Below are positions 2,033-41,466 of a DNA stretch of 64,000 bases, in pieces. Each line of letters opens with the position of its first letter. Positions within the stretch are counted from its first letter, which is position 1. The stretch spans positions 36,090-100,089 of the forward strand of contig JAFSKN010000007.1 in the NCBI GenBank assembly GCA_017448975.1, in the 5' to 3' direction. The notes under the pieces are model-generated. The model worked only from the letters and a program-made list of their open reading frames with translations, did no database searches and was not told the origin of the DNA. This DNA comes from Clostridia bacterium. GTDB taxonomy: Bacteria; Bacillota; Clostridia; Christensenellales; Aristaeellaceae. A program made the position numbers and the translations under genes.

Positions 2033-2201
2033 GGCTTTCTCGGAAGGGGACGAACCGCCGATTTCCGCCAGTGGCGGAAATTAAATCGGCGGTGAGATCG
2101 ACCGAAAAGGAGCAATCTCCGCATGAAGCGGAGTTGCGACTATTGAGGTCGCGGATCTGGGGGAAACCTCTCTTTGGCCTCCAAAGAGAGGTTTCCCCCA
2201 G
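2033..2201 (+). repeat. Structured intergenic repeat, copy 1 (RNA-like domain plus long hairpin)
   Basis: This fills most of the gap between the permease and alpha-glucosidase genes. It has a flank GGCTTTCT.GGAAGGGG (2033-2049), then an 11-bp helix 2054-2064/2083-2093 capped by CCGCC-AGT-GGCGG, a 5-bp helix CGACC/GGTCG (2099-2103/2147-2151), a helix CTCCGC-ATGAA-GCGGAG (2117-2133) extended by GCAA/TTGC, and a perfect 21-bp hairpin at 2157-2201 starting CTGGGGGAAA. Copies at 14.1 and 40.7 kb share the layout with compensatory changes in the helices. Strand is uncertain, because the helices read as helices on both strands. It lies 12 bases past the permease stop codon. Function is unknown. Confidence 0.8.
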
Positions 2202-2213
2202 AAAACTTCGTTC

Positions 2214-3113
2214 TTACTTGATGGAGCCTTCCACCATGCCCTTGACGATATACTTCTGGGCGAAGATATACAGGATGATGATGGGCAGCATGGCCAGCAG
2301 GGTGGAAACCATGATCAGGTTCCACTGCTTCACGAAGGAGCCGTTGAAGCCCTGCACAGCCAGGGGGATGGTGCGGATATCGCCGGAAGCGCCCAGCACC
2401 AGCAGAGGCAGCAGGTAGTCGTTCCAGATCCACAGGCCGTTGAGCACAAGGACGGTGACGAACACGGGCTGCAAAAGCGGGAACACGATGCGGAAGAAGG
2501 TGCCCGCGCGGGAGCAGCCGTCGATGTCCGCCGCTTCTTCCAGCTCCAGGGGCACGCCCTTGATGAAGCCGTGGAAAATGAAGATGCTCATGGCTTCGCC
2601 GAAGCCCAGGTAAGCGAAGATGATGCCCTGATAGGAGCGCAGCATGGGGATGCCGATGAAGTCACCCACGGTTTTGAACCAGGTGAGCAGGGGAAACATA
2701 ACCACCTGGAAGGGGATGACCATAGCGGCCACGTAGGTCAGGAACAGGATGTTGCTCCACCTGGTCTTGTTGCGCACCAGCACCCAGGCGGCCATGGCCG
2801 AGAAGATGGAGATGGCGGCCAGAGACAGCACGGTGATGATCAGGCTGTCGCGGCAGGCGGAGAGGAAATTGAAAGTGGGATTGTTCCAAACGTCGGAGAT
2901 GTTTTGAAACAGGTTGGCCGGATTCTCCGGCAGGCCCACAGGCGCGTTGATGATTTCGGCATTGGTGCGCATGGAGTTCATGATCACAATGACGAAAGGC
3001 AGCATGAACAGGATAAAGAGGAGCAGCGTAAGGATTTCCAGGGCGATGCGCCGTCCCGGATGGGGAATGGAACCGGCCATGCGCTCGATCTGTTCGGGTT
3101 GCTTCTTAGCCAT
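2214..3113 (-). CDS. Sugar ABC transporter permease (MalG-like), importer i
   Basis: Inner-membrane permease of 299 residues, one half of the translocation channel of a CUT1 sugar importer. Six or so hydrophobic segments are visible, the first near 27-47. The cytoplasmic EAA loop that docks the ATPase is present as EAADIDGCSRAGTFFRIVFPL near 191-211. Its start codon overlaps the stop of the MalF-like gene by one base (TAATG), so the two are translationally coupled. Family and length match MalG/YcjP-type proteins. Its neighbours are the partner permease and binding protein upstream and a GH13 alpha-glucosidase downstream, so an alpha-glucoside or maltodextrin-like substrate is inferred. No ATPase gene accompanies it. 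Confidence 0.92.
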   Translation of the reverse strand: MAKKQPEQIERMAGSIPHPGRRIALEILTLLLFILFMLPFVIVIMNSMRTNAEIINAPVGLPENPANLFQNISDVWNNPTFNFLSACRDSLIITVLSLAAISIFSAMAAWVLVRNKTRWSNILFLTYVAAMVIPFQVVMFPLLTWFKTVGDFIGIPMLRSYQGIIFAYLGFGEAMSIFIFHGFIKGVPLELEEAADIDGCSRAGTFFRIVFPLLQPVFVTVLVLNGLWIWNDYLLPLLVLGASGDIRTIPLAVQGFNGSFVKQWNLIMVSTLLAMLPIIILYIFAQKYIVKGMVEGSIK

Positions 3114-12433: not shown

Positions 12434-14026
12434 TTACATGTTGCCGGGGAACATGCCGCGATAGTTGCCATCCTTGTAGGCCTGACGGAATTCTTCGATC
12501 ATTTCGGCAGCGCCGGAGTTCAGGATATCCTGGATGCCAGCGTCGTACACTTCGTCAAACTTTTCGGCGTCGCAGCTCACAACGGCGGCCAGGAATTCGC
12601 CCTGCTTGCTCTTGACGGTGGAGCCATAGTCGGTTTCAGCCTGAATGGCCACGGTGAAGCTGATCTGGGTCCAGGCGTCGGTCAGAGCGTCCACATAGGA
12701 AGCGACCACGTCTTCTTCATAACCGGCGAAGGGCAGAGCCAGAGCGGCGGAGTTCTTTTCATCGCTGCCGTAGTACAGGCCGTTGGAGATGAAGCAGATA
12801 TCGCCGGCGTGCATCTTGTTCTCGTTGGGCACGGCGTCGGCGCTCTTCACACCGTAGGGGATGCCCAGGGTTTCGTCGATGCCCTCATAGTTGATGCCTT
12901 CGATACCGTTCTGCATGGCGAACATGTTCTCGGGAATGGCCATCCAGTCGAGGTACTTGATGGCGGCGATGGCGGTTTCTTCATTGGTGGTCAGGGGGAT
13001 GATGATGCTCAGGCCGTTGGCGGCATACTTGTCGTGCAGGGTCTTGCCGCCCAGAGATTCGTTCTTGAAGGGGTTCACGGTGACCCAGTGTCCTTCGGGA
13101 ACGTTCTTTTCCAGCTCGATCTGGTAGTTCTTGTCGGTGCGCCAGGGCTGGTCGGGCTGCTGGGAGAAGAAGCCGTTGTAGCCCATAATCAGAGCGGTGT
13201 CGTTGGCCTTGTCGTTGTCGGACAGGGCGAAGGTGTCGGGCAGCAGGCCTTCATGATACAGGGTGTTCAGCCAGCGGAAGCCTTCCTTGCTGCCGGGCAG
13301 CATTTCGGGGTTGCGGGCATAGGCGAACCAGTCTTCTTCGGTGACCTGGGTGAAGTCTACCCAAGCGTCGGTGAAGCGGCGCACGTTGTACAGGGGATCG
13401 GGGGCGTAGATGCCGAAGGAGAAGGGCATGGTGTTTTCACCGGCCAGCTGGGCTTCCTTGGCGGCGCGCAGATAGTTGGTGAATTCTTCGATATTGGTGG
13501 GCTTTTCCATGTTCAGGGCCTTGAGCCAGTCTTCACGGATGAAGTTGCCCACGTTGGCAACGCTGATGCGGCGGGCGGGGATGTACCACTGTTCCTTCAC
13601 GCCGTCGCCGTCATGATCGGTCTGGCCGTAGCCCAGCAGCTCTTCACCCAGGAAGGCTACCAGATTGGGGCCGTATTCGGCGATCAGATCGTCCAGCTGC
13701 CAGATGCCTTCGTCGTCGATGCACTGCTGCACCAGACCGCCGTTATAGGTAACGCAGATGTCGGGGGCGGTGCCGCCAGCCAGAGCGTTGGTCAGCAGGT
13801 CGCCTTCCGTCCACCGGGCGTAGGAAACGAATTCAAGTTTGATGTGGTTGGGATCGCCGAAGTTTTCCTGGGCGTAATGCAGCTGCCAGCAGTTGGTCAC
13901 GTCCAGACCGGTGATTTCACGGTCGTAGGTTTCCACGCGCAGGGTGATCCAGTCATCCGCCAGAGCGGAACCGGTCAGACCCAGCAGCAGAGCCAGGGTC
14001 AGCAGGATAGCCAGTGCCTTTTTCAT
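12434..14026 (-). CDS. Large extracellular binding protein (LplA/YtcQ-like), importer iii
   Basis: Solute-binding protein of 530 residues, the larger size class that pairs with LplB/LplC-type permeases. The signal peptide MKKALAILLTLALLLGLTG ends near SALA-D (about residue 23); no lipobox. Mature-part segments such as APDICVTYNGGLVQQC and VANVGNFIREDWLKAL are typical of this class. It follows the two permease genes, with the second copy of the structured repeat (14100-14203) in the gap. The family usually handles plant cell-wall or uronate-containing oligosaccharides; the two dehydrogenases downstream fit that idea but do not prove it. Confidence 0.9.
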   Translation of the reverse strand: MKKALAILLTLALLLGLTGSALADDWITLRVETYDREITGLDVTNCWQLHYAQENFGDPNHIKLEFVSYARWTEGDLLTNALAGGTAPDICVTYNGGLVQQCIDDEGIWQLDDLIAEYGPNLVAFLGEELLGYGQTDHDGDGVKEQWYIPARRISVANVGNFIREDWLKALNMEKPTNIEEFTNYLRAAKEAQLAGENTMPFSFGIYAPDPLYNVRRFTDAWVDFTQVTEEDWFAYARNPEMLPGSKEGFRWLNTLYHEGLLPDTFALSDNDKANDTALIMGYNGFFSQQPDQPWRTDKNYQIELEKNVPEGHWVTVNPFKNESLGGKTLHDKYAANGLSIIIPLTTNEETAIAAIKYLDWMAIPENMFAMQNGIEGINYEGIDETLGIPYGVKSADAVPNENKMHAGDICFISNGLYYGSDEKNSAALALPFAGYEEDVVASYVDALTDAWTQISFTVAIQAETDYGSTVKSKQGEFLAAVVSCDAEKFDEVYDAGIQDILNSGAAEMIEEFRQAYKDGNYRGMFPGNM

Positions 14027-14099: not shown

Positions 14100-14203
14100 T
14101 CCGCAGCCTCAATCGGCGCGACTGCCCTTCATGGGCAGATCGCTTGTTTCGGCTGATTTCACCGCCGACGAAACTCCCGCCACAGGCGGTCGTCGGCGGT
14201 TCA
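14100..14203 (-). repeat. Structured intergenic repeat, copy 2 (RNA-like domain only)
   Basis: Read on the minus strand it has the same layout as copies 1 and 3: an 11-bp helix (14200-14190/14171-14161) capped by CCGCC-TGT-GGCGG, a 5-bp helix CAGCC/GGCTG, and CTGCCC-ATGAA-GGGCAG (14138-14122) extended by GCGA/TCGC. Each helix differs from the other copies by paired changes. The flanking GGCTTTCT box and the long CTGGGGGAAA hairpin are missing here. The permease stop TGA (14203-14201) is inside the element's first bases. It sits within a minus-strand operon, so it is co-transcribed in this orientation. Confidence 0.8.
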
Positions 14204-15115
14204 TCCTTTCACGGCTCCGATGGTGACGCCCGCCACGAAGTAGCGCTGCACGAAGGGATAAACGATCAGGATGGGCAGCGTGGCGAAGATGATGGAAGCG
14301 GGCTCAATGGATTCGGAAATATCCGTTGCCACGGTGGAACTGCCGCCTTCCATGGCCGCGATGTCCACGGCCTGGGAGCCTTTGATCAGGTGGTACAGCT
14401 TCAATTGCAGCGGCTGGTAGGCCTTGGTCTGGATATAGTACAGGGCGTCCTGGAAGCTGTTCCATTTGCCCACGGCGTAGAACAGGGTCAGGGTAGCCAG
14501 GGAGGCCATGGACAGGGGCAGTACGATTTGCAGCAGGATCTGGAAATCGTTGGCGCCGTCGATGGTGGCCGCTTCCTCCAGGGAATCGGGCAGCGCAGTG
14601 AAGAAGCTCTTTAAGATGATCATGTTGTAGGTGCTCAGCATGCCCGGCAGGATCAGGGACCAGGGGGAGTCCAGCAGGCCCAGTTCCTTGATGTTCAGGT
14701 AAATGGGAATGGTGCCGCCGGAGAAATACATGGTGAACAGGGCCATGAAGTTGAAGAATTTACGGCCCGCCAAGCGTTTCTTGGTCAGCGGATAGGCCAT
14801 GAGGATGGTTAGGACCATGGAAAAGAGGGTGTACACCACCGTGATTCCCACGGTGAACCACAGCGAGCGCATCATGGCCGGATCGGAGAAAATGGCCTTG
14901 TAGGCGCGGGTGTCCATCTCAACCGGCCAGAAAGATACTTTGCCGCTCAAAATAGCGGATTTGCTGCTCAGGGAGGTGGCCGCCACGTTGACGAAGGGCA
15001 GCAGGCAGGTCAGGCTGATGAGGAGGATAATGAGGGTCAGGATGATCTGCGGCATGGTCCATATCCGGGGCTTTTTCATGACGATATTGGGTTCAGCGGT
15101 TTTGTTCTGCATCAT
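14201..15115 (-). CDS. ABC transporter permease (LplC/YtcP-like), importer iii
   Basis: Permease of 304 residues. The start MMQNKTAEPNIVMKKPRIW follows AAGGGGGGTGGACAG, and this length fits the LplC/YtcP family; the frame continues upstream to 15526 only as an overlap with the partner gene. Membrane segments start near 25-47. The EAA loop is EEAATIDGANDFQILLQIVLP near 193-213, and the C terminus PFVQRYFVAGVTIGAVKG is the family signature. It lies 14 bases after the LplB-like gene. Importer iii has no ATPase gene here. Confidence 0.92.
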   Translation of the reverse strand: MMQNKTAEPNIVMKKPRIWTMPQIILTLIILLISLTCLLPFVNVAATSLSSKSAILSGKVSFWPVEMDTRAYKAIFSDPAMMRSLWFTVGITVVYTLFSMVLTILMAYPLTKKRLAGRKFFNFMALFTMYFSGGTIPIYLNIKELGLLDSPWSLILPGMLSTYNMIILKSFFTALPDSLEEAATIDGANDFQILLQIVLPLSMASLATLTLFYAVGKWNSFQDALYYIQTKAYQPLQLKLYHLIKGSQAVDIAAMEGGSSTVATDISESIEPASIIFATLPILIVYPFVQRYFVAGVTIGAVKG

Positions 15116-15129
15116 TCTGTCCACCCCCC

Positions 15130-16056
15130 TTACCAGATACCGTCTTCGCCAAGCTTCTTGGAAACGAAGTTGGCGCCGGAAATCAGAACCAGGCCCACCA
15201 GGGACTGGAACAGGCCCACGGCGGTGGCGCGCTCGAACTTGTGATTCTCGATACCGGTGCGGTATACGAAAGTCGAGAGCACGTCGCAATATTTGCGCAC
15301 CTGGGCGTTGCCCAGAATCTGGGGCCGGTCGAAGGAAATGTTCATCATCTGGCCCACGCTCAGGATCAAAAGCACCACGATGGTGGAGCGGATGCCGGGC
15401 AGCGTCACGTGCCAGATCTGCTGCATCTTGTTGGCGCCGTCGATCTTGGCGGCCTCGAACAGCTCCATGTTGATGCCGGTGATGGCGGACAGATACAGGA
15501 TGGTGCCCCAGCCCATGCCCTGCCATACGCCCACCAGGGTGTAGGTGAACTGCCAGTGGGGGCCGTCGGTCAGGAAGGGGATGCTCTTATCGATCCAGCC
15601 CCATTTGAGCAGCGTGGCGTTGATCAGGCCGCTGGTGGGGGAGAACAGCTGCAGCACCATACCGCCGATGATGATCCAGGACAGGAAATGAGGCAGATAC
15701 AGCAGCGTTTGAGATACTTTTTTGACCCCGATGCTCTTCATTTCGTTCAGCATGATGGCCAGCACGATGGGAACCGGGAAGCCCGCCGCCAGCCCCAGCA
15801 GATTCAGCCAGAGGGTATTCCACAGCGCGCTGGAAAAGTCCGACATTTTCATGACGAATTGGAAATTATCCAGCCCCACCCACGGGCTGCCCCACATGCC
15901 TTTGAACAGGTTGTACTTTTCAAAGGCCACAATGATGCCGATCATGGGCTTGTAGCAGAAGAGCAGATAGAAAGCCACCGGCAGGATCAGCATCACGTAC
16001 AGACGCCAGTCCCGGGCCAGCCAGTTCGTGCGCCGTTTGGCTTTTTTCAACTGCAC
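15130..16056 (-). CDS. ABC transporter permease (LplB/YteP-like), importer iii
   Basis: Permease of 308 residues, first gene of operon iii. N terminus MQLKKAKRRTNWLARDWRLY is basic, followed by a membrane segment near 21-41 (MLILPVAFYLLFCYKPMIGI). The EAA loop is FEAAKIDGANKMQQIWHVTLP near 204-224. Family and length agree with LplB/YteP permeases, which work with large binding proteins as found here. A promoter at 16114-16143 precedes it. Confidence 0.92.
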   Translation of the reverse strand: MQLKKAKRRTNWLARDWRLYVMLILPVAFYLLFCYKPMIGIIVAFEKYNLFKGMWGSPWVGLDNFQFVMKMSDFSSALWNTLWLNLLGLAAGFPVPIVLAIMLNEMKSIGVKKVSQTLLYLPHFLSWIIIGGMVLQLFSPTSGLINATLLKWGWIDKSIPFLTDGPHWQFTYTLVGVWQGMGWGTILYLSAITGINMELFEAAKIDGANKMQQIWHVTLPGIRSTIVVLLILSVGQMMNISFDRPQILGNAQVRKYCDVLSTFVYRTGIENHKFERATAVGLFQSLVGLVLISGANFVSKKLGEDGIW

Positions 16057-40718: not shown

Positions 40719-40886
40719 GGCTTTCTTGGAAGGGGACGAACCGCCGATGACCGCCTGTGGCGGGAATATCATCGGCGGTGAGATCATCCGAAACAAGCAA
40801 TGTCCGCATGAAGCGGACTTGCGCCGATTGAGGATGCGGAACTGGGGGAAACCATTCTTTGGCCTCCAAAGAATGGTTTCCCCCAG
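40719..40886 (+). repeat. Structured intergenic repeat, copy 3 (RNA-like domain plus long hairpin)
   Basis: Same architecture as copy 1: GGCTTTCT flank (40719), 11-bp helix 40740-40750/40769-40779 capped by CCGCC-TGT-GGCGG, a 5-bp helix CATCC/GGATG, GTCCGC-ATGAA-GCGGAC (40802-40818) extended by GCAA/TTGC, and a perfect 21-bp hairpin at 40842-40886. Compared with copies 1 and 2 the outer helix, the apical helix, the 5-bp helix and the final hairpin all change in both arms at once. It starts 13 bases after the hsp20 stop. Confidence 0.82.
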
Positions 40887-40899
40887 TTACATTTTCGGA

Positions 40900-41373
40900 T
40901 CAGTTCTTCGCGCTCTCCTGGGCTTCGCCGTGGCCGATGGCAATACGGCGGGCACCGGCGGGTTCAGCGGGCTGGGTCTTGGGCATGGACACGTACAGGA
41001 TGCCGTTCCTGTAATCAGCGGTGATGCGGTCCTGATCGATGCCCTCCAGGCTGAAGGAACGGGATACGTGGCCCGTGCGGCGCTCGCTGTAATAGGCCTT
41101 TTCATCCTTGCGTTCGCTCTGGGTATCGGCGGAAATGGTCAGGGTGTCGTTTTCCACGGTCAGGCTGATCTGGTCTTCCTTCACGCCGGGAAGCTCGGCC
41201 TCCAGGGTGTAATGGTCGCTGTCGTCGTGGATATCCACCCGGAAGCCCACGTTGCCCATCCAGTCGTTCATATCGAAGAAGGAACGGAAGAAACGGTCGT
41301 CAAACAGGGAGGGCAGGCGCTTTTCCTGGGGCAGATTGTGGTGAGAACGGTAAGGCATCATAGAATACAGCAT
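40900..41373 (-). CDS. Hsp20/alpha-crystallin small heat-shock protein
   Basis: ATP-independent chaperone of 157 residues that holds unfolding proteins. Start MLYSMMPYRSHHNLPQ follows GCAAGGAGGTTTTCACC; the frame extends 14 residues upstream without support. The alpha-crystallin domain spans about 42-135 (FRVDIHDDSDHYTLEAELPG, DTLTISADTQ, GILYVSMPK). The C-terminal Ile-x-Ile motif needed for oligomer contacts is present as IAI near 146-148. Regulation is clear from sequence: two CtsR-type heptad repeats lie at the promoter. It is a monocistronic unit ending in repeat copy 3. Confidence 0.95.
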   Translation of the reverse strand: MLYSMMPYRSHHNLPQEKRLPSLFDDRFFRSFFDMNDWMGNVGFRVDIHDDSDHYTLEAELPGVKEDQISLTVENDTLTISADTQSERKDEKAYYSERRTGHVSRSFSLEGIDQDRITADYRNGILYVSMPKTQPAEPAGARRIAIGHGEAQESAKN

Positions 41374-41466
41374 GGTGAAAACCTCCTTGCATCTTTCGGG
41401 CGGCAGCCCGGTCATCGTTTGCTTTGCCGCCAGCGGTCACTTTCATTTTCCCCCGCTGACGAGCAC

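Follow-up and report, generated by a model that had tools for sequence, protein, structure and literature searches.

To our knowledge, few systems choose DNA hairpins as insertion sites by their shape. HEARO and OMEGA guide RNAs can occur as stand-alone dispersed copies, and GTTRRRY is one of the end boxes of integron attC sites. The other box, RYYYAAC, figures in a description of attC-like single-stranded DNA motifs such as OTH-22-1 (PMC8632094). REP and REPIN elements are described as carrying a GTAG or GTGG tetranucleotide at the foot of the hairpin, and the proposed mode of movement for REP elements is in trans, as single strands of DNA (PMC6006769). IS607, in the account of PMC6188088, inserts at GG with a preference for (G)GG, has GG ends and shows neither terminal inverted repeats nor target duplication, and group IIC introns are reported to target a DNA stem-loop and to exploit lagging strands (PMC10190682).

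Here we describe a folded element present in dozens of copies per genome in a gut bacterium and its relatives. Like REP and REPIN elements, which go with RAYT (TnpA_REP, HUH Y1), it is short, high-copy, hairpin-forming and mostly intergenic; unlike them, it has 33 pairs that form two dissimilar arms arranged in direct order, it has no GTAG or GTGG at the hairpin foot (among the six flanking bases, just the G that abuts the core is fixed across 107 elements), and a Y1 gene was found in only 3 of the 12 high-copy genomes (those with 16 or more matches; the other 13 of the 25 genomes with copy counts are low-copy). It shares with IS607 a GG target, a GG end and the lack of inverted ends and target duplication, but differs in its hairpin targets, its strand bias and the absence of any IS607 transposase over the cut-off in 29 genomes. 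Insertion beside DNA stem-loops and coupling to replication recall group IIC introns, although the element is far shorter, has no Rfam intron match and occurs in eight high-copy genomes in which no reverse transcriptase was found.

Folded DNA and conserved short motifs are likewise features of attC sites, but none of the 107 elements has the RYYYAAC and GTTRRRY boxes at both ends, and the copies are dispersed singly, with no cassettes noticed. Guide-type RNAs of the HEARO and OMEGA kind, structured as the element is, had been named among the candidates to consider: there is no Rfam match, and a TnpB domain scores over the cut-off in 1 of the 12 high-copy genomes, in a search for which TnpB was the partner considered. 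Unlike classical MITEs of DDE transposons, the element has no terminal inverted repeats or target-site duplication, and unlike IS110/IS1111 systems it is accompanied by a DEDD transposase in none of the 12 high-copy genomes. Because it fails a tested defining feature of IS607, REP elements and group IIC introns, we class it as probably a small non-autonomous, hairpin-forming mobile DNA. In the parts of the literature that our search reached, no description was recognised as this element.

Three copies and their neighbours

The window, by which we mean the whole 64-kb stretch of DNA that was analysed, contains three copies, at 2049-2155 (+), 14100-14205 (-) and 40735-40840 (+). The original prediction was right about these copies and their paired changes: the outer helix ends TTT/AAA, CGA/TCG and TGA/TCA, the apical CTCCGC, CTGCCC and GTCCGC and the shorter CGACC, CAGCC and CATCC each have their partners, and the loops are constant as described.

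Copy 1 has the core GACGAA...GCGGA, with a moving unit of about ACGAA...GCGG, and scores 129.3 bits against our covariance model R1. On its left lies the target flank GGCTTTCTCGGAAGGG (2033-2048, +), whose terminal G run abuts the element, and on its right a terminator-like hairpin CTGGGGGAAACC..GGTTTCCCCCAG (2157-2201, no strand assigned), which, by analogy with the empty site at copy 3, is taken as a target predating the insertion. Beyond it is an ABC permease gene (2214-3113, -; PF00528, E 1.2e-21), to which copy 1 is downstream and antisense. Copy 3 (R1 123.2 bits) adjoins and has as its target the terminator-like hairpin (40842-40886, no strand assigned) of an Hsp20 gene (40900-41415, -; PF00011, E 1.2e-23), which has an element-free counterpart in two relatives (G005 and G010). 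The hairpins 3′ of copies 1 and 3 therefore lie outside the element, and the earlier assignment of this part to it has to be given up. Near-identical long terminator-like hairpins of this kind (CTGGGGGAAACC..CTTTGG..CCAAAG..GGTTTCCCCCAG) recur downstream of unrelated genes.

Copy 2, of a GATGAA subfamily, is flanked by two genes that share a direction. The first, an ABC permease gene (BPD_transp_1; 14201-15526, -; PF00528, E 3e-7), ends at the copy, whose first bases form its stop codon, GGA TGA. The second (12434-14026, -) has no Pfam match at E<=0.001 and probably encodes a secreted binding protein, because its product begins MKKALAILLTLALLLG. The claim that all copies begin or end within about 15 bases of a stop codon holds for copy 2, the sole copy starting on one, and for copies 1 and 3 only if the adjoining hairpin is counted.

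A covarying fold of two arms

Thirty-four of 45 regular-expression candidates in the window's genome (G000) have a recognisable 5′ end and were aligned (A3). The alignment gives the layout GACGAA-[P1, apical hairpin]-TGAGATC-[P2]-GAAA-nn-[P3]-nn-ATTGAG-[P2']-CGGA, in which arm 1 is P1, of 10-11 bp with an apical CCGCC-WGT-GGCGG hairpin and with GACGAA and TGAGATC beside it, and arm 2 is P2-P3, with a constant GAAA/ATTGA internal loop and a terminal CGGA. By eye, G.A juxtapositions adjoin P1 and occur below P3, and the C3-G48 pair is T3-A48 in the GATGAA subfamily.

In these 34 copies, both partners have changed together at 17 of the 33 pairs, each in one copy or more, and 97.8% of cells pair, against 87.6% after shuffling. 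Cells changed on both sides number 96, compared with 22.5 in shuffles and at most 21 when partners are slid by 1-3 columns, and the covariation score is 0.264, compared with 0.081 in shuffles and at most 0.055 for slid partners. Among 81 full-length copies from relatives, all four Watson-Crick types occur at several P1, P2 and P3 pairs. DNA folding of all three window copies gives z of -5.6 to -7.1 on either strand.

At the gathering score, Rfam has no match in the whole window, and in 10 related loci it finds only one real tRNA; with strong covariation and many homologues in the covariance-model search, the proposal of a structured family without an Rfam match is borne out. A relaxed Rfam search of copy 1 returned a Histidine-leader (28.4 of 49 bits, E 0.0086) over the neighbouring hairpin and ten weaker matches, all sub-threshold and taken as chance.

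The original prediction went further and read the paired changes as selection on RNA. Among 4,390 paired cells of 144 distinct copies, however, G-T occurs 31 times and A-C 24 times (27:23 in an earlier count; the P2b columns, where the alignment misplaces a gap, are excluded from A3 and A6), so that pairing is nearly symmetric between the strands and the balance is too close to settle which strand is functional. In a control of 20 tRNAs from the fetched DNA, 17 G-T and 5 A-C fall in 240 stem cells, a comparison that is only suggestive because tRNAs are much older. To that extent, the counts give no reason to infer selection at the RNA level for most copies. The element also cautions that perfect covariation of bacterial intergenic repeats need not imply RNA.

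Distribution and copy number

The window's genome (3.08 Mb, 80 contigs, 85% complete) holds 56 BLASTN matches to copy 1 and 70 matches to R1 (cmsearch) at E<=1, 58 of them above 70 bits. Among 41 genomes, at least 21 have matches at E<=0.001, all in the window's genus, within which, among the matches listed, copies vary from 0 to 68 (G000-G024; stricter filters than the E<=1 scan). Four genomes have none (G007, G017, G021 and G022). Larger genomes tend to hold more copies (rho 0.58 in the 25 genomes counted).

Across 396 genomes from the order, 14 have matches, all in the window's family, in a scan that may miss weak or rare copies because scoring was limited to nine candidates per genome. Another genus of the family is represented by three near-complete genomes, G408, G310 and G206, which carry 43-47 matches each (44, 43 and 47; E<=0.01). 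A pattern scan of named genomes gave at least 99 stretches; among the matches listed (80), these come from uncultured Clostridia, with ruminants as the named sources, apart from one Gemmobacter match that is probably chance. The same kind of scan of IMG/VR gave 57 stretches, with elements at E<1e-10 in three (L478, L451 and L434), two further weak matches (L451 and L476) and none at E<=0.1 in the remaining stretches; phage and plasmid records had no match to copy 1.

In more distant relatives, arm 2 (NNNCC-GAAA...ATTGAGG-NN-GCGGA) is kept and the 5′ half is replaced, sometimes in tandem arrays. Relatives of this kind, with another 5′ half such as GCCCAGTGGGC..AGCGACCCG..GAGTC, were seen at L330 and L332 (genus g22), L329 and L343 (g26), L097/L251 and L098, and the g22 loci form tandem arrays with a period of about 91.

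Empty sites, target rule and nesting

Orthologous and paralogous sites are found without the ~104-nt unit. At the copy-3 site, G005 and G010 retain the terminator-like hairpin of hsp20 as well as a flank of the CCCCTTCC type. The permease/next-gene junction of copy 2 is empty in at least eight genomes (G010, G023, G020, G022, G001, G044, G015 and G007) and probably in four more whose orthology is less certain at about 70% identity (G013, G005, G041 and G042); G004 has a tandem pair there and G012 a decayed remnant. Palindromic host repeats are filled in L020 and empty in L011, L015, L027, L100 and others, the empty form being gtccaggg^aggtcacctccctgg. Family-C repeats are empty in L038 and L123 (gtgcggggg^gcacgcggggg), and the g20 locus in L365 compared with L379 gives gatttggg^taacaactgcc.

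By our own count, 18 of 37 copies in the window's genome are hosted by larger repeats common to other copies. Dispersed multi-hairpin repeats of a few hundred nucleotides (for example, GCTTCTGGCCCGG..CCGGATGCTTTGCATCCGG..GGGCCAGAAGC), which host elements in flanks such as L012, L016 and L036, were present in many of the intergenic regions of this genome that we viewed. The element also lies within itself: nested copies occupy the P1 apical loop in L031, L032, L033, L105 and L206, and in L114 three copies in a row, up to the contig end, are nested at the P3 loop, an arrangement that could also be read as tandem duplication.

The target rule was derived from the 107 of 142 elements with distinct flanks. 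Because a G precedes the core in all 107 and the core itself starts with G, we read the insertion as flush, between two Gs (G|G); at the other end, 92 elements have an A after GCGG. Perfect hairpins of 7 bp or longer are found in the 46 nt downstream of 34 elements, compared with 4 of 107 control windows, upstream of 18 compared with 10, and on either side of 45 compared with 14; none occurs in the tested windows of the other 62. The tandem start-to-start distance of 104 nt (C54) sets the moving unit at about ACGAA...GCGG, with a 3′ boundary that is not exact because the first 1-3 right-hand bases are often unlike those of the empty site. Comparison of empty and filled sites shows no target duplication, and the ends are not inverted repeats, with 3-7 of 12 terminal bases matching, mostly 5-6. 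The original prediction had weighed a known simple DNA transposon end against the RNA reading; what emerged is indeed a mobile DNA element, but one with no inverted ends, target duplication or identified transposase. In L346 (435-3104, -) an open frame seems to traverse a copy, a possible in-frame insertion for which L348, L360 and L367 were flagged too.

Strand bias with replication

Replichores were set by eye from GC skew at 20, 20 and 19 sampled stretches in G408, G310 and G206, positive skew marking the leading strand. At E<=1e-6, 111 of 134 matches merge into 97 loci, and in 71 of these the readable strand opposes fork movement (p=5.5e-6). The counts are 23 of 30 in G408, 27 of 33 in G310 and 21 of 34 in G206, the last not significant alone (p=0.23). 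Including one match at E 1.4e-6 gives 72 of 98, and all 134 matches give 80 of 113 (p=1.1e-5). Gene orientation does not account for the bias: neighbouring genes run in the same direction as the element in 28 cases and in the opposite direction in 26 (29 loci; four sides without an ORF), and in G408 in 30 and 24 cases (27 loci with fetched context, 20 of them head-on). Since the readable strand opposes the fork, its complement would be the lagging-strand template, which is exposed there.

Copies on permease stop codons

The GATGAA subfamily sits on ABC-permease stop codons, in sense before the next gene; at copy 2 and at sites like it, the codon itself comes from the element. In the window's genome (L033), at L205 and in G310 of another genus (L407), an element stands at the junction between a permease gene and one for a MalK-type ATPase, with permeases 81-86% and ATPases 76-85% identical and with compensatory differences between the elements in P1 and its hairpin. 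The retained copy at L033 has another nested inside it, two copies stand in tandem at L205, and a paralogous, more distant operon (L265; permease 57-58%) carries the element at the same place. At L500, L504 and L505 (G408 and G206), loci whose orthology is not established, no such junction was found.

Certain copies, foremost those on permease stop codons, appear to have been retained and may now serve as mRNA hairpins between cistrons. The junction copies are the best case for a present-day function, probably of this kind; REP sequences, as one report has it, can raise mRNA stability (PMC6006769). That the element has been kept at a transporter stop codon in two genera suggests how a parasite may turn into part of an operon.

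Mechanism and alternatives

We think it probable that the element is a non-autonomous mobile DNA of about 104 nt and two folded arms, moving in folded single-stranded form at the replication fork, a reading that draws on its structure, dispersal, empty sites, GG rule, hairpin enrichment, nesting and strand bias. One strand would fold on becoming single-stranded at the fork; a recombinase or transposase acting in trans would recognise this single-stranded intermediate by its fold, probably by the constant arm 2; and the fold would be joined flush after GG to a second DNA strand, which in many cases lies within or next to a hairpin of its own. Self-insertion would follow because the element offers two target hairpins. 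A bolder version, tentative and on balance doubtful, is that of a selfish 104-nt fold that travels as single-stranded DNA into fork hairpins by shape and GG, recursively and without the known single-strand transposases, its mover being a new enzyme class or host template switching. Dozens of insertions per genome, together with empty sites, nesting and strand bias, amount to a natural experiment on the movement of folded single-stranded DNA.

A structured RNA acting in cis or in trans, as a regulatory RNA or as intercistronic mRNA hairpins with dispersal secondary, would explain the strong covariation and constant unpaired motifs, the GATGAA copies in sense between permease and next gene, and the junction kept with compensatory differences in L033, L205 and L407 and at the L265 paralogue. 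Yet most copies show no consistent arrangement towards genes (28 in the same direction, 26 opposite), empty sites are common, the strand follows replication, G-U pairs are scarce (31 of 4,390 cells, against 17 of 240 in tRNA stems), and the junction did not turn up at L500, L504 and L505, three loci of less certain relationship. We regard this explanation as unlikely for the family as a whole, and the RNA-rather-than-DNA-repeat argument of the original prediction is not supported: an orthologous site may have or lack a copy, some copies have inserted into others, and their strand tracks replication. The subfamily between sugar-transport genes may have an RNA role. That no dedicated enzyme exists, hairpin segments being copied to other hairpins by template switching through GG microhomology during lagging-strand synthesis, would fit the strand bias, the GG at both ends, the 1-3-nt changes at the right junction, the other multi-hairpin repeats in the same genome and the failure to find a partner gene. 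Constant ends and loops, which suggest recognition, and the recurrence of identical unit boundaries make this rather improbable.

Equally hard to credit is conservative insertion of the IS607 kind, in which a serine recombinase would exchange strands over a 2-bp GG and the element would be a miniature derivative. GG insertion, the GG end and the lack of terminal inverted repeats and target duplication all match, and serine recombinases with weak matches to the IS607 transposase model (NF033518) occur in 11 of 12 high-copy genomes. But they occur in 9 of 13 low-copy genomes too, none of the 29 genus genomes has a match over the cut-off, and the weak matches lie mostly in open frames of about 400-650 aa, those inspected by eye starting like resolvase catalytic domains. 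Because leading strands are rich in G, GG alone as the rule would predict the opposite strand bias, and the hairpin preference would go unexplained. Least probable by some way, in our view, is a retroelement like a group IIC intron, whose RNA would enter DNA next to a stem-loop at the fork: the element, too, often has a hairpin bordering its site, and four of the 12 high-copy genomes but none of the 13 low-copy ones have reverse transcriptase genes (RVT_1), yet 104 nt without recognised group II domains or an Rfam match, the eight high-copy genomes with RVT_1 undetected and a readable strand that would lie on the leading-strand template all speak against it.

Search for a possible mobilizing enzyme

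For the preferred reading of a folded single strand moved in trans, the missing enzyme is a concrete and findable target. Our partner scan covered the Y1, RVT_1, IS110, TnpB and IS607 families. Each of the five went undetected in at least 8 of the 12 high-copy genomes, none separated the high-copy genomes completely from the low-copy ones, and G005 (92% complete, 45 matches) had none over the cut-off. These absences carry less weight because the assemblies are only 65-96% complete. Y1_Tnp (PF01797) was found in 10 of 29 genus genomes and not in G005, G009, G010 or G013; TnpB (PF07282) exceeded the cut-off in 3 of 29 and IS110 (PF01548) in two, G014 (5 element matches) and G043 (elements not counted). 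RVT_1, in 6 of 29, came nearest to a signal, with a rho of 0.52 against copy number (partial 0.32), and serine recombinases gave 0.51 (partial 0.24); genome size may carry part of both correlations.

The neighbour scan took in 96 of 102 ORFs. No mobile-element family recurs near g20 copies, the maximum being 3 of 96 neighbouring ORFs, and the families that do recur are transporter and beta-lactamase-fold genes (both statements for the best 25 of 101 families). Serine-recombinase-like genes, recognised by eye and by weak NF033518 matches, were seen at G000:C51 (L516) and at G005:C25:29000-36000 (L515), where three in a row resemble integrative elements.
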